Of a stretch of 64,000 nt of DNA, positions 35,528 to 62,364 are shown one piece after another. The stretch is from assembly GCF_964355755.1 (NCBI RefSeq), contig NC_092672.1, positions 34,530,501-34,594,500 on the forward strand, written 5' to 3'. Positions within the stretch are counted from its first letter, which is position 1. Every line of letters begins with the position of its first letter. The notes below the pieces were generated by a model. The model was not told the origin of the DNA, did no database searches, and worked only from the letters and a program-made list of their open reading frames with translations. The translations under genes were made by a program, and so were the position numbers. The stretch is from Antedon mediterranea. Lineage: Eukaryota; Echinodermata; Crinoidea; Comatulida; Antedonidae.

Positions 35528-38500
35528 TTATAGCTTGCTCTTCCAACACGAGGGATCTGACTGCAATTCTGATTTAAGAACATCCTGGTCACTCAGAAGA
35601 AACTCTGCGAATTGCGACACAACAGGGTCAGAGTTCATGCTGGCAGCTGCGACTACACGATCACCCCTTTAAAAAAAAATTTCATTTTAAATAAATTCTA
35701 AAGATTTAACGTTTTTATATATGTTTTCTAGAGTGGTTCTTGATACCTTAAGATAAAACACACAGCCAACACAAAAATTGATAATTATGAAATTAATCTT
35801 ACTTTGTATAATAAGCAACAAATTTCAGTTCTTCTAAGCTACCATCAATAATAACATCATCCATGCCATTACTGTACCCTGCAAATCGTACACTTTTCCC
35901 AAAAATTTGCGTCCAGAAATAAGGTACGCTCTTCACTTCTGTCTCCTGGTCTAAGACATTTAATGCTGCTGTACGACCTGAGAGAAAAACAAGAAGATAG
36001 TTATAAATGTCAGTTTGTGTTTTTGTACATCTTCTTTGAAAAAATGCATTGATGTTCATGTAGCAAGACAAACTAAATCTCAAGAGCTTAAGCTACATCT
36101 GTATTTTAAAACTGCCTTATGACATGTGGCTATATTCAGCACCACTTAAGAATGGTTTCCACTAGGACGCAACACAGGAACATAAGCCATAAGGTAAGCG
36201 AATTGACCAATCAAAAGCCATATATTTTTCCAACTGTCGCTTGTGATTGGTCAATTCGCTTGCGTTGCAGCTCATGTCCTTGCGTTGGTTGCATCCCAGT
36301 GGGAACCAAGCTTTAGGCTATTAGGGAAATATAAATTCTCATATATAAGTTACATCCTTTAAATATTGATTATTTATTTATTGACTTTAGTGAAATACTT
36401 ATTTAATAGAAATATTCAACTTGATTCAGATAGGTAATATATAGACATTGAAGCCTGCTGCTGTAAGAAGCTTAGATGGTTGCTGTTCCTCAGCTGAGAG
36501 GTTGTAGACAGAGTGTTTACAACTCACCATGTGCATGTGCCATCTGCCAGTGTCCTATTGATACCTTTGCATCATCAGCAATGCTCAATGGGAACTCCAC
36601 TATATCTCCAGCAGCATATATATTATCCTTATTAGTTTTCATAGTCTGTAAAAAATGATACAGGTATGAAATTATATAAAGCTTTTTCTACACTATCAAA
36701 CTTTATGTGACAAAAAATGTGATGTGCCCATATATAGACATGATGATATCATATCAATACCATATTTGGGTATATCACATCACACTTATTTTTTTCACAT
36801 AAACTTTGACTGCACACGTGCCAATTCATGTGGTAATGATTTTGTCCTGTTCTATTCTCTACCAATATACTGTAGCAGACTATTGTTACCACTTTTTAAG
36901 ATAATTTATAAATTCCTACTATCTATTTCTTTCTTTGTTAAACTAGTGTATTTTATTTTATTTAAAAATGTTTTATTTGATTTCAATTGGCAAATCTACA
37001 GCGGGGAGTAGATACAAAACAAGACAAAAGAACATGACAAGGTCCACAAGAACCAATTACAAACAATTCTTAATTTGGATTTAAATAAAGATAAAGAATT
37101 TTTAATATAAAAAGAAAAGTGTAAAAACTTCTCTGGTTTGGTTACTTTGATGTACCTGTTCTGTACATTATCAAATTTTGAAAGAATTTCATTTAGCTTC
37201 GATTTTGTATAGATGACAAATTTCGTTTTTGTAAAAGCACAAGTTAACGGAGTACTTACTCGAACGTTTCGATCTCTATCAGAGATCCTTCTCAACTGAC
37301 TGCGGAGTGTTAATGCAGCTTGGTCATTCTTGACGTCATCTGTTGATGACGTTGGGGAAACAGGGAGGGCATTACAAACACGAATTAATGATCACAAAAA
37401 AGATGTTACAACAAACACGGGGGGAGTAATGACTAGGGCCTCCAGAACATCCACATCTTCGATCATACACAAATCTGCCATTACAGAACATGTCATAAAA
37501 CACAATCATGTACCGAACTGGGAGGCTACCATCTTAACCAAAGAGCCTAAACGCAAAGACAGACAGATTAGAGAATCATTACATATAAGGAGAAATAAAG
37601 AGAAGACCATGAACCGGGACACTGGAGCCCACGAACTCTCGCATTTGTACAATGATTTGATAGACACATCACCTGGCCGAGCCCCGCACAACCTCCAACC
37701 TACAACCGGAGGCGTACAACGTCATCAACAGATGACGTCAAGAATGACCAAGCTGCATTAACACTCCGCAGTCAGTTGAGAAGGATCTCTGATAGAGATC
37801 GAAACGTTCGAGTAAGTACTCCGTTAACTTGTGCTTTTACAAAAACGAAATTTGTCATCTATTATCAAATTTGTCATTAAGAATTAAGAATTGCTTATTT
37901 CTTTACCTTGTCTACTATGACAGCTCCCCTGTCATTCATTACAACACCGCTATCTTTCAAGAACTCCGTTGATGGCGTCACACCAATGCCAACAACACAC
38001 ACATCGGCAGCAATCGTTTGTCCGTCTTTCAACACGGCTTCTCTTAATTTTCCCTCTTCTCCTTTCAGCTCGGTCACTCCATTGTTCATTATAAATTTGA
38101 CATTCTTTTCTTCACAAAGCTAAAAAAATAGTAATACAATTTAAAAATATTTTTTATACACCGATTATACTGTACCTAAATTGATAGTTCTCATTCAAAA
38201 TGATACATATGCATATATAGTCATTAAATTTATGGTATTGTGGTATGAATCCACCCTGGAATTAGTAAGTGAATATTGTATTGTTTACTGTTATCTAAAG
38301 ATATGTTAAAATATAAATGCATAAATAAATATTTTCTGAAATATATAATATTATAATGGGGAGAGGGTAAAATTGCAGATACTTACCTTTTGAAGAGCGC
38401 CACCAATGTCTTTACCTAGACTTGCTTCATACGGTACAGTTGACCGTCCAACAATGGTGACACTGCTTGCCTTGTTGGCCAAATAGGCTGCAACTTCCAC

Positions 38501-41500
38501 CCCTAAATAAATTTAAGTAATAACTTTAGTGAGGTGACATAGACAGTTTTGTGTGAGTGACATTATATTAAAATGCAATGTTCAAATTTGGTTTGTTTAT
38601 ATATTTAGGTAAATTGTCAAGGATAGCCATAAGCAAATTCATTCACTATCCTTCTCAAAGGTGGCAGTCCTGTTCGTTCACAATACACACATATACACAA
38701 GATGCTCTACATAAACAAAGTCTTATTACAAGTCTTTGGGAGTGGAGTTTGTCATTAGAAAAAATCCTGACATGACAGGACTTGAACCCAGGACCCTTGA
38801 ACCCAGGACCCTTGGATTGGTAGCCAAGCATTATAACCACCAAGCCACAACTCCACTCTATTTGGCTGCAAATGAGACTGTAGTGTTAAGGAAGTTGTGA
38901 AATGTGAACTTACCTATAAATGAGGCTCCAATTATTACTACATTCTTGCCTTTAGCATTAGCTACAATATGGTTACCATCTTCTGGAGTTCTCAGTAAAC
39001 AGACATTTTCCAGGTCAGCTCCAGGAATTGTAAGCTTTCGTGGTCTAAAAATAGTTTACCATGTGTAAGTCATCATCATGTGGTTTGAATAGATAAAATA
39101 CTCTGTCAGTAGTTATGTTAAAACAAAAGATATTTTTCTTATGCTCTCTCTACACTATCAAAATTTATGTGACAAAAACAATGTGATGTGCCCATGGACA
39201 TGATTATGTCATATCACTACAATATTGGATATTGTCATATGTAGGTCAGGCTTATATTTGGTTTTGAGAGCAAGGAAAGAGAAAGTTGGAGGATGGGTGT
39301 AAGTTTGGAGTGAAGTGGTAGAAGAGCATTCCATCCGACCTCCACACAAATTTTAATCATGATGTACTTACTTGCCACCAGTTGCAACAACAAGCGTGTC
39401 ATAGACTAACGATTCTCCATTTTGGAATTTGACAGAATTCAGCATTGTATCAACTGATACAGCTTCCATGCTGGTCTTGACATCAATGTCATAAACACTA
39501 AAGAAGTCAGCCTTTCTAAGAGCAAGAGAATCTGCAGTGGCATCAAGGGCCTGCAAGATTTTAAAAGTACATTATTATTGGAGTTTATTATCTAACAGCG
39601 ATGATTAAATAACAGGATTGTGAAATTAATTGGACAAAAAAAATTGATGTGCCCAAATATGATATGACATGTCCATATGGGCACATCACATTTTGTTGTC
39701 ACATAAGGTTTGATAGTGGAGACAGAGCTTTAGATTATTTAACTGTTTATGCATCACACACTGTATACATAACAAAACTATAGCCAGTGGAGTAGTAGTG
39801 TAACGGTGTAATTTTAGTGTATCCGTTACTATACCATATAGTCTCAGCGGCAGGATTTCACACAGTCACAAAATGTACCAACAGCAAATATGGTTTATGG
39901 TCAGATACAGCTTTATTTAAATATGCAATGTAATACAGTCTATTCTGGCTATATTACATACCTTTTCTTCTCTCCATTATAAATGTTTTATTCTACCAAG
40001 CTCTTTTCCTTCTCTTTTTCTCCTCTTACCAGTGCATCCATATTTTAAGGAACGGTCCTAATTAATATGCATGTACTGGGAGGGGACTATTTAGTAAAGG
40101 GAACATTCCATGATGATGAGGAAACAGTAATTGATTAAGGATGTGGGTTATAGGAGAGTGAATAAAGAGTACCTAGGGATAGGAAGAAACCACTAGGAAT
40201 GTTAATAGATGGAGTAGGGAGAAATAGTGAAAAAGGGTTGTTGACCTGATGGTCAGAGTGTTACATTATTCCCTCTCTACCAAAGAAGTGTCCCACTTCG
40301 TATATTTAAAATAAAAGATAATTGTAATATAAAAGAAATTAAGTAATTAAGTAAATGCTGAAATTAAAACTGTATGCTAATTAAATTTAAGAAACAAAAT
40401 CAAGCGTAGTAAAATATTTGTTCCCTGCTAGGGCGTCTAGCATATCCTCAATTCTGGGGAGGGGGTGGCAGTCTTTAATAGTGTGGGTATTGAGTTTTCG
40501 ATAGTCTACACAAAAACGGTAAGACTTATCTTTTTTCTTTACCATTACGACAGGGGAGCACCAAGGACTATTGCTAGGTTCAATAACGCCTTTTTTCAAA
40601 AGGTCTTGAATTTGAGAATTAATTTCGTCCCTAATTTTTGGTGAAGTACGATATGCTTTCTGTCGAATTGGTTTAACATTATCTGTATCAATAGAATGGG
40701 ATATTATGTCGGTGTGGCCAAAATCGGTTTTATCCTTACTGAAAATATCGGGAAATTGATTAAATAAATGGCCTACAGCAGTCGACTGGTCCTTGGTTAA
40801 ATCACTAGGTAATACACATGGATTAATTGTTGTATGAGGGGCCTTATGAATATTAGGTTCTTGAGAAACAGTATGATCAACATCATCTACAAATGCATTT
40901 GTGCAAATAAACTCTAATGGAGAATTATCGCAATTGGTACCTGCTGTTGGTTGAATAATAGAAAATAATTTATTACAGAAATCAATTTTGACTGAATATT
41001 TGTCTAGAAAATCGAGACCTATAATGAAAGACCTAACAACATTCTTAGCTACCAAAAATAATTGGGTATAAGCAACATTATTAATGAAAAATGGAATTTC
41101 AACCGTTCCTACAATATCTAAAGGAGAACCATTTACTGACCGTGTTAAATACCTACTATTACTAGTACGAGTAAGGGTATGCTCAGCATGAAGATGAGTT
41201 AGGAAGAAATTATAATTTACTATTGAGACCTGAGCACCTGTATCTATTAAAGCATTAACAATCTGGTTGGATACAAAAATGGGAATTTCGGATTTATTGT
41301 TTAATCGAACTTGGAGCCTCTGATGATCAATATAAGAATGGGTAATAACATTCTGAGCTGAGAATTGCTCCTTCTTCCCAGCTCTTCCTAGTTTTCCGGT
41401 TGATTTGAGAAGGAGACACGCCTATTAGTATGAGGGCTATTACTACCTGAACGATTATGAGGGGAATTTTCACGATTATGTCGTGGGTAAGGGCTTCCAG

Positions 41501-44500
41501 ATCGCCGAGGAGTACGGTAGTGAGGAGATTGGGAGCGATTGGAATTATGATATCGGGGTGATTGAGATCTATTATTGTAGTAGTGTGGTGGACCAGGGCT
41601 GTATGACCTGGTATTCCGTTGGTCATAACGGTAGGGGCTTGGACTACTACGACGATCATGAGATCTACGATTATAATCACGGCGATGATGATACGGACTT
41701 GGGCTGCGTCGGTCGTGCCAGCGGGGTCTGTTTGCATATTCGGGAAATCTACTTCTACTAGGTCTATCTATATCTATAGTTAATAATTTATTGACAGCAT
41801 CTTTTAGAGCCATGACCTCTTGACGAAGGTCGTCTGTCTGAACCATATGAACAGGGGCTGGGGATTGTGATGATGGACCATAAAATTGAGTGGCCTCTTT
41901 TGAATATTCTATATTTTGGGCCACGCGCAAGGCTTGTGTAATGTTTGTTACACCATGCTCATGGCATTTTTGACGCAACTCTGTATCCAAACCAGCAATG
42001 AAACGTCTGAAGATTTCGCCATCTTGCGCAACCTGACCATAAGTCGGGAAGACCTCGCGTACCAACCGAGCAATGTCGGCGGCATAAACTTGTAAAGACT
42101 CCCCAATTCGTCTTGGTCGGGACGTGAGAGATGATCGGAATGCCAGGTGTTTTAGTGAATCTTGGTCAAAGGTTTTAATTAATTCAGCTTGCGCTAATTG
42201 AAAGTTAGTTTTGATTCTGTGGGGCAAATTATCCCAAAATGTGAATGCAGCTCCCGATAAACGTGAAGGTAAAATACGAGCCTTTTCGGCTGGGGTCGTT
42301 GCAGGATTTGCTGCATCGAGAGCTACCTCAAGGCGCCGGCACCATACCGAAAAATCTTCGGTGCCATTACCCAGGAAAAAAGGGGGTAAATCAACTTTAT
42401 ATGGAACGGTGTGAGAATTTTGAGAAGAGGCGTGACTTCTATGTAACGGGGACGGAAGGGTTATCGAGGGGGATGATGGGGTAATCGGGCTGGTATCTGT
42501 ACCAGGTATCAGACTGTGTGTAGAAATTGGGGTATTAACAGCCGTATTTCCCGAACGTAAAAACATGTTACAATATTATTATATCTATACCTATATTATA
42601 TCACCCGAAGAAAGAGGAGGTTATAGAAAAGAACTAGAAATGATGGATCACTTACCACTTCGTTAATATTGTGTTCAAATCAAGTTGAATATACTGTGGG
42701 CTATCCAAAATAATGTTTAAAAATAAATCAGCCAAGCCATCCACAAACAAAATGTTTATAAAAAGTTCCATCTGCGACTCAAAAGTATTAAACAAATTTT
42801 ATACGTATCAAAGTTCGTATAAAGCGTTCAAAATAAAAAATGTCAAAAAAAAGTTAAACAAAAGGTCGCAAAAACAGTTAATGATCAATAGTAAAAAATC
42901 ATCTTCTTTTCGGTCTTCGTTCTTCGTCTCTTTGCCTCGGTGTTTTTTTCTTCTGTCTTCCGTTTTCTATTTCTGGGGTTGGTCCTGCAATTGTTTCATC
43001 CAATAATCTTCTTTTCTTCTTCTTTTGCTCTTCTTTGTCTGTGTTCATTCATCCATCAGCATCTGCTGCTCCACAAATTCCAAATCTGATCCATCTTCTT
43101 GTTTTTTTTTTCTTCTTTTTTCTTTTTGTTTTATTGGCTTCTGTGGGTCCAAATTGGTGTGGGAACCAGTTGTAACGGTGTAATTTTAGTGTATCCGTTA
43201 CTATACCATATAGTCTCAGCGGCAGGATTTCACACAGTCACAAAATGTACCAACAGCAAATATGGTTTATGGTCAGATACAGCTTTATTTAAATATGCAA
43301 TGTAATACAGTCTATTCTGGCTATATTACATACCTTTTCTTCTCTCCATTATAAATGTTTTATTCTACCAAGCTCTTTTCCTTCTCTTTTTCTCCTCTTA
43401 CCAGTGCATCCATATTTTAAGGAACGGTCCTAATTAATATGCATGTACTGGGAGGGGACTATTTAGTAAAGGGAACATTCCATGATGATGAGGAAACAGT
43501 AATTGATTAAGGATGTGGGTTATAGGAGAGTGAATAAAGAGTACCTAGGGATAGGAAGAAACCACTAGGAATGTTAATAGATGGAGTAGGGAGAAATAGT
43601 GAAAAAGGGTTGTTGACCTGATGGTCAGAGTGTTACAGTAGCCTTCAATGAAGTTTGCTCCTAAATGTTAGAAGAAGTTTGTATTTTTTTTTTTATGGTT
43701 TACTCTTCACTATAAAATCTTAAAATAGCATCGCACCTTGCTCAACTTAGGTCTGTCGTATGGTACATGTCCTTCTTTAGTCGCCATCACTAATTGACCT
43801 TTGAACCCTTCCTGCCTCAAAGTCTCTGCACAAGTAGTAGCAGCAGCTCCTAGAAAAAAACAAAAATGTTGTTGACTTTGTGCTAATGTTTTTGCACCAA
43901 ATCTCTGTCTACACTATCAAACTTCATGTGACAAAATGTGGACATGATGTCATATCACTACCATATTTGGGCACAGACTAGGATAAATACGTACCTCCTC
44001 CTATTATTAATATTTTCTTGTCCTCATCAGGAGACTGGCAAGTCATCTCTTTGATCCGTTTATGTGATTCCTAGAGTGATAAAATCAAATGACTACATTG
44101 TTGACACAAAACCTATTTTTCTAATAATTAGCAGCTAGTAATTGAGTAATTAAGAGAGAATTTTCTTTTTTGTTAATCTAAAAATCAAAATCATAAAAAA
44201 AAAAAATTCAATCTGTTAATATCAGGAGAAAAATATATTTAAGTAGTAATTGAGTATGAGTTTTAATTAACAATTTTATAACGTTTAAGAGAATTGTTCA
44301 AACAACAGTTGATATTAACATCAATAAAAGTGAGAGATAATATTAGGAAACAAGTTCTTTAATATAAGACATATCTTATGAGAGTTACTAAAAAAAAAAA
44401 ATAATAACAAAATTAAGATATTATGTCATCACTATCTTACTTTATTATTACATGTCACAATGACATCATCTCCTTCAACTTTGACATCAAATTTAGGAAC

Positions 44501-55916: not shown

Positions 55917-58214
55917 ATGGTCCGTTTAAGAAACAGGTAGCACTGTATTTCCCACTAACTATAATTTTTAAATGTCTTAATAGAATATACTTTAATTCGT
56001 TGTAGATGATGATGAATTAACATCCACCGGACCTGGCTAAAGCTAGGCCCTCTCCTTTCTGACTTACTACTGGACATGGATGAGGTACACATTGAGATGC
56101 AGACAGCACGCAGCACCAAGAGGAAGTGATCCTATTATGAAAAATAGACAAATATTTTATTTTTAATCTTTTAAGTCATGTTTTTGTAGCAATTTTGTGA
56201 TTTTATTATTTTTTAAAAGGTATCTTCTTTGTGAAATAAACTTTGATGATCAGCGTACAAATATTGCAGTTATGTCAAATGATCTTCTTAATGAAATTAA
56301 GCAGTCTGTTGTGACTATGCATGGAGATTATGGGATCGGTTCTGTCATGCCTGGCTTTAATGGTACGTTGAATAAATATACATTTGTTGAATAACCATTC
56401 AATTTATTCCAAATAGATTTTAGTCGACAAATTAACAGTACCTCTACAAACAACAACAGAAAATGTAAAAATGCTCAGCTTGGCCCTTGGGGGAACTCTC
56501 TCGTAATCACTTCCCAAAATTTTTAATTTAATGATAATGTTATGCGCGATTTGAACGATTTGCGCAATTTGAAATTGCGCAAAAAAAATCCTTGCGCAAT
56601 TTGAATTGAAACATGTGTTTCAAATTGCACAAGCAACGTATTAAATTGCGCAAGTAATCTGCAAATTGCGCAAGGTTTTTCGACAGATTGTGAAATCATG
56701 CACACCCATATTTTTATAGTAATTTCTAAGAATGATTCAAAATTAAAGATAAATATCGCATTTCCTTATTTTAGTAGTGCAAATATTGTTATAAGTTAGC
56801 ATACCGTCGAAGAACCGACGAAGGAAAACGAAGCGGTGGTGTTCCACCAGGCGGGCGCGGCGCGGGCGGCCGGCTATACTACTCTAGCCTTGCTAGGGTC
56901 TGGACTACTGATACTGACTAGGTTACATGGCCTAGCTTAAACTAATATTAAAAAGTGAGTATTAACATTATCTTCATTGAAATGGTCTTATTTACCCTAT
57001 ATAATAAAATACTAAATTTTAAACTCCTCTGCCTAGGCTTAGCCTAGCCATGTATGGGAAAATTTACAGTTTGTTTTCAAATTGCGCAAAGGTGTCATAT
57101 TGCGCAAGAACTATCTTGCGCAATTTACAAATTGTGCAGCGCAATTTAAAATTGCGCAAAGATTTTCTTGCGCAATTTGAAATTGCGCAAGTTGATTGCG
57201 CAATTTGAAATTGCGCAAAAAAATCCTTGCGCAATTTTTAATTGCGCAAGAATTCTTTGCGCAATTTCAAATTGCGCAAAGATTTTTTTGCGCAATTTTA
57301 AATTGCGCAAATCGTTCAAATCGCGCATAACAATAATATTGATAAAATGTCATACACTGAGTCCTGGATATCTGGCACAGTATTAATTCCTTAGACCCAG
57401 GGGAATATCTGATAAACATACTATAATCATGATACATAGTTTATATCCACTTTAAAACACTGTTAAGCCAGTACTGTATTTAAAAAATGTCTTTTAGTGA
57501 AATATTTGAACCCGTATACAAGAATATTCATAGTACGTTCAAGAAGAAGGTCTTACAAGTTTGTGTCTACTGCTTTACCTTTCATGAAGAAACTTCTTGA
57601 TAAACCCTGCAGAATCACAACATTGCATTGCGGAGGTAGGAAATCAGTTGTTCACTCTGCGTGTTCAAAGGCGAGAAAAAATGTTTTTGAAATTTGTTAA
57701 ACCTTCCTACACTATCAAACTGGTCTGGTTATCATTTAATTTATCTAATAATTACCATATTGTAAAATGTAAAGCTCTGTTCACATATCAAACTTTATGT
57801 GACAAAAAAATGTGAATGTGATGTGCTTATATATGGACATGATGATGTCATATCACTACCATATTTGGAAATATCACACCATTTTTTTTGTCAAACCAGT
57901 TTGAAAGTGTAGACCGAGCTTTATGGTGGATTTGTGAGATTTATGGTCAATGCAGAATATGCCACTTTGAATCTGTTATAGATTGAGAAGTCATTAACAT
58001 TCATTTCAGTATTTATGCATTATATTTAGGGACAATTCGTTCTTGTCAGAAATTCCTCCTCAAATATCAACGCCAACAACTCTCTGCCGTCCTTCTAAAG
58101 TGTAAAACAGATCCAGAGCAAAAGAAAGTTAAGGAGTCAATACTGAAATGTACACTGAAGGATGTGGAGGGGGAGGGATGCTTGGAAGAGGAAGAAGACA
58201 TTGACAGTAGCTGA
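55917..58214 (+). CDS. POP5: Ribonuclease P/MRP protein subunit POP5
   Basis: Four exons, 55917-55936, 56220-56362, 57498-57635 and 58030-58214, join in phase to 161 residues (human 163). Landmarks in order are MVRLRNRYLLCEI, DLLNEIKQSVVTMHGDYGIG, VKYLNPYTRIFIVRSRRRSY, FVSTALPFMKKL, ITTLHCGGTIRSCQKFLLKY and an acidic tail ending GCLEEEEDIDSS. POP5 is a core protein of the RNase P and RNase MRP ribonucleoproteins that process tRNA 5' ends and pre-rRNA. The first coding exon is only 20 nt. Intron 2 (1.1 kb) carries a palindrome-rich fold-back element. AATAAA at 58677 ends the transcript close to that of convergent TYW1. Confidence 0.96.
56539..57332. mobile_element. Fold-back element of GCGCAATTT palindromes in POP5 intron 2
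   Basis: Both ends carry the same inverted sequence: GTTATGCGCGATTTGAACGA then TTTGCGCAATTT on the left and its mirror ending CGCGCATAAC on the right. Subterminally, TTGCGCAATTTNAAATTGCG units are repeated, few on the left (56560-56680) and about ten on the right (57075-57315). The core contains a GC-rich block (GGCGGGCGCGGCGCGGGCGG near 56853). AAT flanks both sides. No coding frame; ORFs here are by-products of the repeats. Confidence 0.75.
57772..57921. repeat. Fold-back MITE family A, copy 20, in POP5 intron 3
   Basis: Full-length, inverse orientation, TA on both outer sides (GTAAAGC / GCTTTATG), 109 bp before the last POP5 exon. Confidence 0.85.
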
Positions 58215-59020: not shown

Positions 59021-61996
59021 TTAGCAACCAGACAAGTCACGCTTTTTCTTCCCTTTAGCATAAAATCTGGTTTCTACAGGGTCGAATCCCTGCTCTGCGC
59101 TGCCATACACCGCCCAGTGAGGCGTGGCTGCCATGTAATCCTCGGCCCGGAATGTAGAGTCTCCTTCACTTTGTTTTAAATCTTGAATCAACTCGTGAAA
59201 TTTATCATAATCTATCCAAGTATGCCAAATGCCATCTACCTTAAACTGTTGGACGAAAAAGGACAGAATCTTTGTCAATATTGGTTTTAATGGCTTTTGG
59301 TAGTAAATCTATGCAAACTGGTAAAACTGTACAGAAACCAATAAATGTACAATTCATGCTAACATTTTCTGAAAAATTCTTAAACTGTATACTATACAAT
59401 TTTAAAAAAATATTAAAAATTAAAAATAAATTTGTGCTGTTATAAAATAAATGTAATGTATAGTTGCATGCTAAATTTATTGAATAACATAATACAGTAT
59501 TCGCTTTTATATATTACAAACCTTATATTTCTGTTATTACAGTTATATAGATTTTTTCTTTTTTAGGGCACCACTAGTTGTAAAAGCGTTGTTGCTTGTT
59601 TTGTGGTTGTCCCTGTTCCATTTCTTCTCAATTTTACAATTTCAGATGGAATAAAAGAAATAAACTTACTTTTTTGTGTGCCAGCAGAACGCAATTGGAA
59701 TGAGCATGCTCAGAAGCTATTTCGTAGTCATTCAGACTATTTGCTAAATTTTCTACAAATCCTACGACTTCTTCATGCCAAGGCACATTCTCCATTGTTA
59801 ATGAACTAGCTTTTGATGTTCCGCAATATGTAACCCCCTTTGAAAAAAAGGATATCATAGAATGAGCATGCTCACAAGATATCATCCAACTATGGATGTT
59901 AATACAGTAGTAATATCTAATTTGGTTTTCAATGATAGTTATTATATAACACCTAAAAATAACTAATACTAATAAATTCTTGTTATTTGATAAAAAACAA
60001 GTGCCCTATTATTATGTTAAAGATGAAAGGTCATATAACCTTTCACCTCTTGAAATTATTTGTACTATTGCACTCATAAACATTATTTGTATGCTATAGA
60101 GTATTCAATGATGGTTATTATAGAGGATTTATAATCTGAATTAGATGCTTTAAAATATAATTGAAACATTATTGGAAATTTAAAAAAAACATGCAGTATA
60201 AGAAAAGGAAAAGAAGATATGAAAATACTATGTCTCACCTTGACTTCAATGAAATCTGGTTTTCCTAGGCTGACTAAGTTTGCATATGCATCAACCTCCT
60301 CACTATTCCAAGCCTTCACGATTGTCAGACGATACACCGTACGCTGACCCTAGGAAATAACAGTTATTTACAATGATTTCATTCAATTTTAGGACTATTA
60401 TTATTTTGGACTAGTATTATTCATTATTAAAGTAATGCTGTGATGATTTGTTTACGTCTAATTTCTGATGGATACACTAAGAATCAACATTTGTTTTACA
60501 TTTACGTGAAATCTGCAGAATTATTGACTGAACATCAATTTCAGTACTAATTATCCCTTAAGACCCTAGGCTTACCTAAGTATTAACAATCATTTTTTGG
60601 GTCTATCACTCATTTAGTTCATTCAGGTTTTTTTCTACATACCTTTTCTGATAAAGCTTTTAGGCTGTTAAGGAATCTAGGCCAGAAGTCTCTAAATAGA
60701 GGTCTGTCGATCTTCTTTAAACTATCCTTAGTGCTGGCATCAACACTTACATAAAGCTGCGTCACAGGTTCCAATGATCTACAATATAACACACATTTAG
60801 TATTATAGAAATTTGTATACCTCAATGGAAATATGATATAGGTCTCGTATTCAATTCTGAACATAGGGTAATGAGCTGTTAGCTCATTTTACTTAAGCCT
60901 TGGCATTGTGTGGTACAGTGACCAGTTCCTTTCCACGCCATCTTATCTTCCCTAGTATTTTTAACCAGATACTTATTTACAGCATACTGGGAGTTGTCGA
61001 GTATAATCCCAGGGGTATGGTTACATTTGGTGAACATTAGGGGTGGACATTTACTCTTAAAGCTCTGTCTACACTATCAAACTTTTATGTGACAAAGTGA
61101 TGTACCCATATATGGACATGATGATGTGGATATGGACATCATAATTACAGAACCATATTTGGTCATATCACTACCACATTTGGGCACAACGAGTTTGATA
61201 GTGTAGACAGAACATTACGGTACAATAATCCAACACTACACTAATCTCATACATGTCTGATTACCTTATTGCATCAGGGAACTGTGCATTTGTAACAAGG
61301 AATGTTGATATTTCTTTACTGTGGAGTAACTGAATAAGTGTGTTTATTTCTGGATACATGATTGGTTCGCCTACTAATGATAAAGCACAATGTTTGGCCG
61401 TCATTCCTTCTGCTAGCCTTTCTGGTATCACGCCTGGTACACCTAGAAAAATATGGCAATATATAATGCTGTGAATTAATCAAATTCACTTACTATCTTT
61501 TCTGGTTGTCTGGTATTTGAACAGGACAAGTCTCCTTTCATTTCTTATACCAAATTTAATTAGACATATTACTTTTTTAAGCTCTGTCTACACTATCAAA
61601 CTTTATGTGACAAAAATGGTGATGTGCCCATATATGGACATGATGATGTCATATCACTACCATATTTGGGCACACACACTTTTTTTGTCAAACTAGTTTG
61701 ATAGTGTAAATAGAGCTTTATACATAATTTAATTAGACATATTACTATAATTTATGAATTTTTGTATAATTTCACAAAAAAGGAAGTTATGTTGAACTTA
61801 AATTGAAAGAAAAAATGTTTATTCGATTTGAATACCAGCTTACAGAAAAAAAATGTGTTTATAAATAAATAATATTTATGTCATACCTTTGAATTCATTA
61901 ATCATTTTGTAATGATTTTGAAGAGCACCCTTAACAACAGTTTCTGGATCATCCATTTTCCATCGCCATTCAGTTCCAACAGGGTTAGTGTGATGT
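59021..61996 (-). CDS. TYW1: tRNA wybutosine-synthesizing protein 1, C-terminal half
   Basis: Six minus-strand exons, 61887-61996, 61265-61442, 60643-60778, 60239-60349, 59670-59837 and 59021-59245, join in phase to ~308 codons ending RDLSGC-stop. Matched blocks are HHTNPVGTEWRWKMDDPETV, KHCALSLVGEPIMYPEINTL, TQLYVSVDASTKDSLKKIDR, PDFIEVK/GVTYCGTSKASS, TMENVPWHEEV and YMAATPHWAVYG. TYW1 is a radical-SAM enzyme that makes 4-demethylwyosine from N1-methylguanosine-37 and pyruvate in tRNA-Phe. The flavodoxin domain and the CxxxCxxC cluster motif (just before HHTNP) lie on exons not present before 64000, so the 5' half of the gene is outside or unrecognised. Human TYW1 is 732 residues. Confidence 0.95.
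61059..61212. repeat. Fold-back MITE family A, copy 21, in a TYW1 intron
   Basis: Inverse orientation with an extra ATGTGGATATGGACATC. The 45 bp before it (GGGGTATGGTTACA...TTACTC) recur before copy 24, so both were duplicated with flank. Confidence 0.8.
61579..61717. repeat. Fold-back MITE family A, copy 22
   Basis: Full-length, inverse orientation. A 21-bp direct repeat (core TTTAATTAGACATATTAC) lies at 61553-61573 and 61726-61746, close to both ends. Confidence 0.85.
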
Positions 61997-62256
61997 CTGG
62001 AACAAAAAAAACATAGATTATTAAAATAACAACTAATAATTAAAAAAAAGTACAAGGCCAGATAGAGATGTTTGTCAAATTTGTTTATGTTGAACAATAC
62101 TTGGGAGATGTAACAATTTTTTAAATTTATTTTACATCTTTCTGACAATACTATTTTCAATAGACAATTTTTTTCTATAAGCTGGTATTCAAATCGAATA
62201 AACATTTTTTCTTTCAATTTAAGTTCAACATAACTTCCTTTTTTGTGAAATTATAC
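61764..62256. repeat. TYW1: 87-bp inverted repeat around a TYW1 exon
   Basis: Left arm 61764-61850 and right arm ~62169-62256 are reverse complements with one visible mismatch (TTACAG vs TTATAG). Shared blocks include CACAAAAAAGGAAGTTATGT and ATTCGATTTGAATACCAGCT. The 318-bp loop contains TYW1 exon 61887-61996 with both splice sites. Confidence 0.88.
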
Positions 62257-62364
62257 ACGAACTTGTCACGAACTTGTGTAAAAACAATCAATATTGATTG
62301 AACGAGTTGTACTGCACATCAGTCTCGTGTCTAAATAAAGTTTATATATATATATATACCGTAT

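Follow-up and report, generated by a model that had tools for sequence, protein, structure and literature searches.

The long inverted repeat that brackets one exon of the TYW1 gene in Antedon mediterranea looks like the by-product of a LINE insertion rather than an evolved control element. Within the window, i.e., the whole stretch of 64,000 nucleotides analysed here, arm A (61763 to 61842, plus strand) lies in the intron downstream of the exon, and arm B (62178 to 62257, minus strand) lies in the intron upstream of it, where it adjoins a fragment of a high-copy LINE, a neighbour that the initial annotation had missed, together with the resemblance of the repeat to an insertion scar. The arrangement of these pieces suggests that arm B was probably made at the LINE junction, repeat and element having arisen jointly in one recent insertion. 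According to this proposal, a LINE would have landed in the TYW1 intron upstream of the exon in a single event, and its 5' junction would carry an inverted copy of nearby intron sequence, arm A being the putative ancestral copy and arm B the derived one, copied from arm A during the attachment of the LINE 5' end.

The bracketed exon (61887 to 61996, minus strand) is 110 nt long, contains conserved TYW1 sequence and is bounded by AG and GT splice sites, and its skipping would shift the reading frame. The joined exons of the gene matched the Pfam families Wyosine_form (E 1e-26) and Radical_SAM, which supports the TYW1 identity proposed in the initial annotation of this DNA, and an exon-by-exon search located one copy of TYW1 in the genome. 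The neighbouring exon on the upstream side runs to about 64016 and that on the downstream side begins at about 61442; the introns flanking the bracketed exon extend from 61997 to about 64015 and from about 61443 to 61886, and complementary arms sit in both of them. This exon is the only one in the loop, which bears out the earlier reading that the loop holds exactly one 110-nt exon together with both of its splice sites.

When the two arms were compared, they turned out to be exact reverse complements over 80 of 80 bases, separated by a spacer of 335 bp, with the first mismatch inward of the perfect arms at 61843 (C) versus 62177. With mismatches tolerated, the inverted match lengthens to 94 bp (97.9% identity) or 103 bp (94%), the imperfect similarity of arm A running on inward to about 61865, and the previous description of 87-bp arms with one mismatch around a 318-bp loop was a fair one. 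In 30 resamples of the whole window under a first-order Markov model, exact inverted matches within 1 kb reached at most 12-18 bp, and an inverted match of 80 bp is far beyond chance. A search of the arm sequence against the 354-Mb genome (11 large contigs) returned the two arms alone, so that the earlier statement that the arms match no other repeat holds across the genome at the sensitivity of this search, which diverged copies may escape. Since the arms are, at that sensitivity, unique to the locus, they are not the terminal repeats of a transposon, and a TIR transposon or MITE having the arms as its ends was excluded because the arm is present at two genome sites only.

The other large and close inverted repeats that were checked, two in the window (23441/23837 and 37209/37717) and one from a random sample of 10 kb (L007), proved to be dispersed elements, comprising a Penelope-like fragment and elements with terminal repeats, and the possibility that repeats of the TYW1 type are a genome-wide habit was discarded on these grounds. 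Random samples totalling 180 kb yielded no recognisable repeat of this type with unique arms, two smaller or longer pairs (L008 and L011) being left untraced. Because its arms are unique and the other large, close inverted repeats are dispersed elements, the TYW1 repeat is, as judged from these comparisons, a local inverted duplication and not a pair of transposon ends.

The element beside arm B (62266 to about 62358, plus strand) is the 5'-truncated 3' end of a young LINE that belongs to a dispersed family and ends in a (TA)n tail. A 70-bp LINE probe gave 175 first-look candidates in the genome, 12 LINE candidates were read to establish the identity of the LINE 3' end, and in longer copies the sequence upstream encodes a reverse transcriptase domain (RVT_1, E 3e-28). 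The stretch from 62266 to 62358 has near-identical counterparts at no fewer than 40 further genome sites, all of them joined at one and the same base, and the window copy agrees with a longer copy (L030) at 86 of 86 bases over 62266-62351. The arms (80/80) and the LINE (86/86) show equal apparent youth, a point in favour of their joint origin. Truncation points differ among the 24 other copies truncated within the stretch read, and in the 200 upstream bases compared (some flanks being short) none of these 24 showed a local inverted repeat at its junction. Because of this absence, the capture of neighbouring sequence would be at best rare in the LINE family, and, since the other large, close inverted repeats are in addition dispersed elements, the exon-bracketing repeat is, on present comparison, a rare accident. 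No adjacent target-site duplication was found at the window LINE, which is not unusual for the family because only one of the 24 other copies has a long one (L028, where the truncated copy at 1434-1646 has a perfect duplication of 57 bp) and most copies lack any.

Two other members of the family have 5' junctions of their own interest. Copy L034 (about 1500-1510) shares its truncation point with the window copy, down to the LINE base, and is likewise preceded by CTTG, and copy L056 (about 395-415) carries the short tandem repeat ATCAAGCAAG at its LINE 5' junction. Both junctions hint at slippage of the LINE enzyme as synthesis ends.

The outer junction of arm B is accounted for to the last base. 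Eight bases of filler, CGAACTTG (62258 to 62265, plus strand), join arm B to the LINE. Read together with the terminal CA of arm B, they duplicate the start of the LINE fragment; CACGAACTTGT accordingly stands twice in tandem (62256-62266 and 62267-62277), and nowhere else in the window. Arm B, filler and LINE are flush, with zero unexplained bases, and the far-end overlap between arm B and the re-copied LINE start is 2 bp (CA). Arm A has no LINE neighbour, the duplication that flanks the adjoining MITE stopping about 16 bp away, and it is because arm B is flush with the LINE and arm A lacks such a neighbour that arm A is taken to be old and arm B derived.

At the inner edge, the perfect match ends at 61842/62178 and, after one mismatch, AGAAAAAAA (61844 to 61852, plus strand) stands opposite TTTTTTTCT (62168 to 62176, plus strand). 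These sequences form a 9-bp inverted microhomology in which AGAAAAAAA would be the template side and TTTTTTTCT, at the end of the putative original target DNA, the primer side. Anchored extension of the inner sequences gave a score of 32, which was equalled by 2 of 1953 random window placements. This score is about what would be expected if the best annealing site within 1-2 kb had served as primer, and the similarity past the perfect block would fit, as expected, such a choice of the best local site. Since the tract is T-rich, the inner microhomology is moderate rather than strong evidence.

These features make fold-back priming the likeliest specific route to arm B, a preference that we hold tentatively. 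The broken upstream DNA end (...ACAATTTTTTTCTA-3') would have folded back and annealed to AGAAAAAAA beside arm A; it would then have been extended through arm A for about 80 bases and released, and the product would have been joined to the LINE cDNA end via the 2-base CA overlap. A comparable process is known in yeast, where double-strand breaks at MATa yield fold-back insertions that are inverted local copies, with an imperfect inverted microhomology of 10 bp where priming occurs, a far-end overlap of 0-5 bp (median 2), copied tracts between 2 and about 150 bp long and a loop of 41 nt (PMC11724301). The TYW1 locus resembles these insertions in its inverted local copy, in its 9-bp inner microhomology with an imperfect extension, in its far-end overlap of 2 bp and in its length of 80 bp, which lies inside the 2-150-bp range. 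In contrast, the partner end at TYW1 would be a LINE cDNA instead of the other half of an enzyme-cut break, and the case concerns the germline of an animal, in which the event is either fixed or segregating. The loop differs as well, being about 325-335 nt instead of 41 nt, and a 9-bp T-rich primer would be poorly served by a hairpin loop of that size, which counts against the fold-back route.

A close rival, somewhat unlikely in itself, is a template jump, in which the LINE reverse transcriptase would have come off its own RNA, re-copied 11 nt and next taken the sense TYW1 pre-mRNA at the locus as its template for about 80 nt of intron, the cDNA then being joined to the upstream target DNA. 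The 11-nt re-copy resembles slippage or jumping, and a jump was the explanation favoured by the authors who described many extra 5'-junction nucleotides in the zebrafish LINE ZfL2-2 (PMC2666801). Rearrangements described at R1 insertion sites consist of 16-27-nt copies of the 28S target upstream of the site (PMC2718515). The TYW1 locus is like the ZfL2-2 and the R1/R2 cases in having extra, partly templated bases at a truncated non-LTR 5' junction and a target-site duplication that is variable or absent, but its extra sequence is 80 bp long, inverted and derived from a host gene about 335 bp off. To extend leftward beyond the LINE, a cDNA would have to be templated by the sense strand of TYW1, and the gene is indeed transcribed from the minus strand, although a strand fit alone has a one-in-two chance of occurring. 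The extended similarity at the inner edge is not predicted by a jump alone, and jump and fold-back are inseparable from a single case.

Both of these routes assume that arm B and the LINE arrived together, whereas it is improbable that the inverted duplication is older and that the LINE landed by chance at its edge or cut a once longer arm. The density of transposable elements in the region would favour such an encounter, and the imperfect similarity inside the perfect block could reflect partial homogenisation by gene conversion. Nevertheless, the junction is exact to the single base and the LINE is the source of its filler, the sequence from 62359 on does not, by eye, extend the arm outward of 61763, and arms and LINE look equally young. 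Inverted junctions are also a known type of artefact; however, an assembly or amplification artefact is hardly credible here, because the sequences just inside the two arms are different, the structure is continued on either side by unique sequence and contains the LINE junction, and it sits within a 38.9-Mb contig. A simple inversion between LINE target-site duplications was also considered and excluded, since the orientation of the exon would come out wrong.

The consequences of the repeat for the TYW1 transcript were assessed by folding predictions. The arms would pair across the exon in the TYW1 pre-mRNA; the repeat region is predicted to fold at -198 kcal/mol (z = -12 versus shuffles), the duplex between the arms having an energy of about -134 kcal/mol, in agreement with the strong pre-mRNA stem previously suggested. 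It had also been suggested that this stem could hide the exon, but the predicted mean unpaired probability was 0.41 for the acceptor and 0.50 for the donor with arm and LINE present, versus 0.29 and 0.47, respectively, in the in-silico empty site. The splice sites are, therefore, predicted to be no less accessible with the insertion, and folding lends no support to their burial. The effect to be expected by default from this model is a double-stranded intronic stem that is tolerated by splicing, and circular RNA or editing, should either occur, would be incidental to it. Since conserved TYW1 sequence lies in the exon and the frame would shift without it, the repeat is probably tolerated, not used.

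That the repeat is instead a maintained regulatory element that decides whether the TYW1 exon is included or circularised, or else an editing substrate, is highly improbable. The very strong predicted stem, the presence of exactly one exon in the loop and the single copy of the gene in the genome would speak for such a role, whereas the apparently accidental and recent origin of the repeat, the lack of predicted extra burial of the splice sites and the short, frame-shifting exon speak against it. The locus has complementary sequences in both introns flanking the exon, as do Sry and the flanking-repeat models of circular RNA formation (reviewed in PMC4479058), but its repeat is unique instead of a pair of dispersed elements, and its exon is short. 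In that review, inverted repeats alone were reported to be insufficient for circular RNA formation, and short exons to be unfavourable (PMC4479058).

If the reading of a joint origin is right, the locus provides a base-by-base record of an exon-spanning intronic inverted repeat born from a single retrotransposon insertion, with no need for two element copies to meet in opposite orientation, as well as a natural and fresh test of whether a new strong stem alters the splicing of a single-copy gene. Every ingredient of the proposed origin is already known, and a narrow literature search, covering few subscription journals, found no description of an inverted repeat that spans an exon and originated at the 5' junction of a LINE. 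A broader claim, that intronic LINE insertions can surround an adjacent exon with a long, perfect inverted repeat in one step, is at this point speculative and rather unlikely to hold; if it were true, 5' junctions that copy the host transcript or broken host DNA would give rise to new dsRNA substrates and circular RNA loci.

Several other repeats of the window were recorded. A palindromic MITE-like element (61579 to 61720, strand not assigned), with 1373 first-look candidates in the genome, lies in the same intron as arm A and outside the inverted repeat, and it is flanked by a near-perfect direct duplication of ~28 bp (61545-61573 and 61718-61746), which is long for a DNA transposon. The region 37209-37862 contains a perfect 146-bp inverted repeat around a GIY-YIG-like fragment, labelled Penelope-like by eye from its GIY-YIG-like reading frame; the right part of this region (514 bp) is about 100% identical at some 40 genome sites, so that the family is very young and active-looking. 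A cluster of palindromic GCGCAATTT-type repeats in mixed orientations occupies 56530-57340, and open frames on the minus strand at 40387-42575 resemble, by eye, the gag and protease/reverse transcriptase of a Gypsy-like LTR element.
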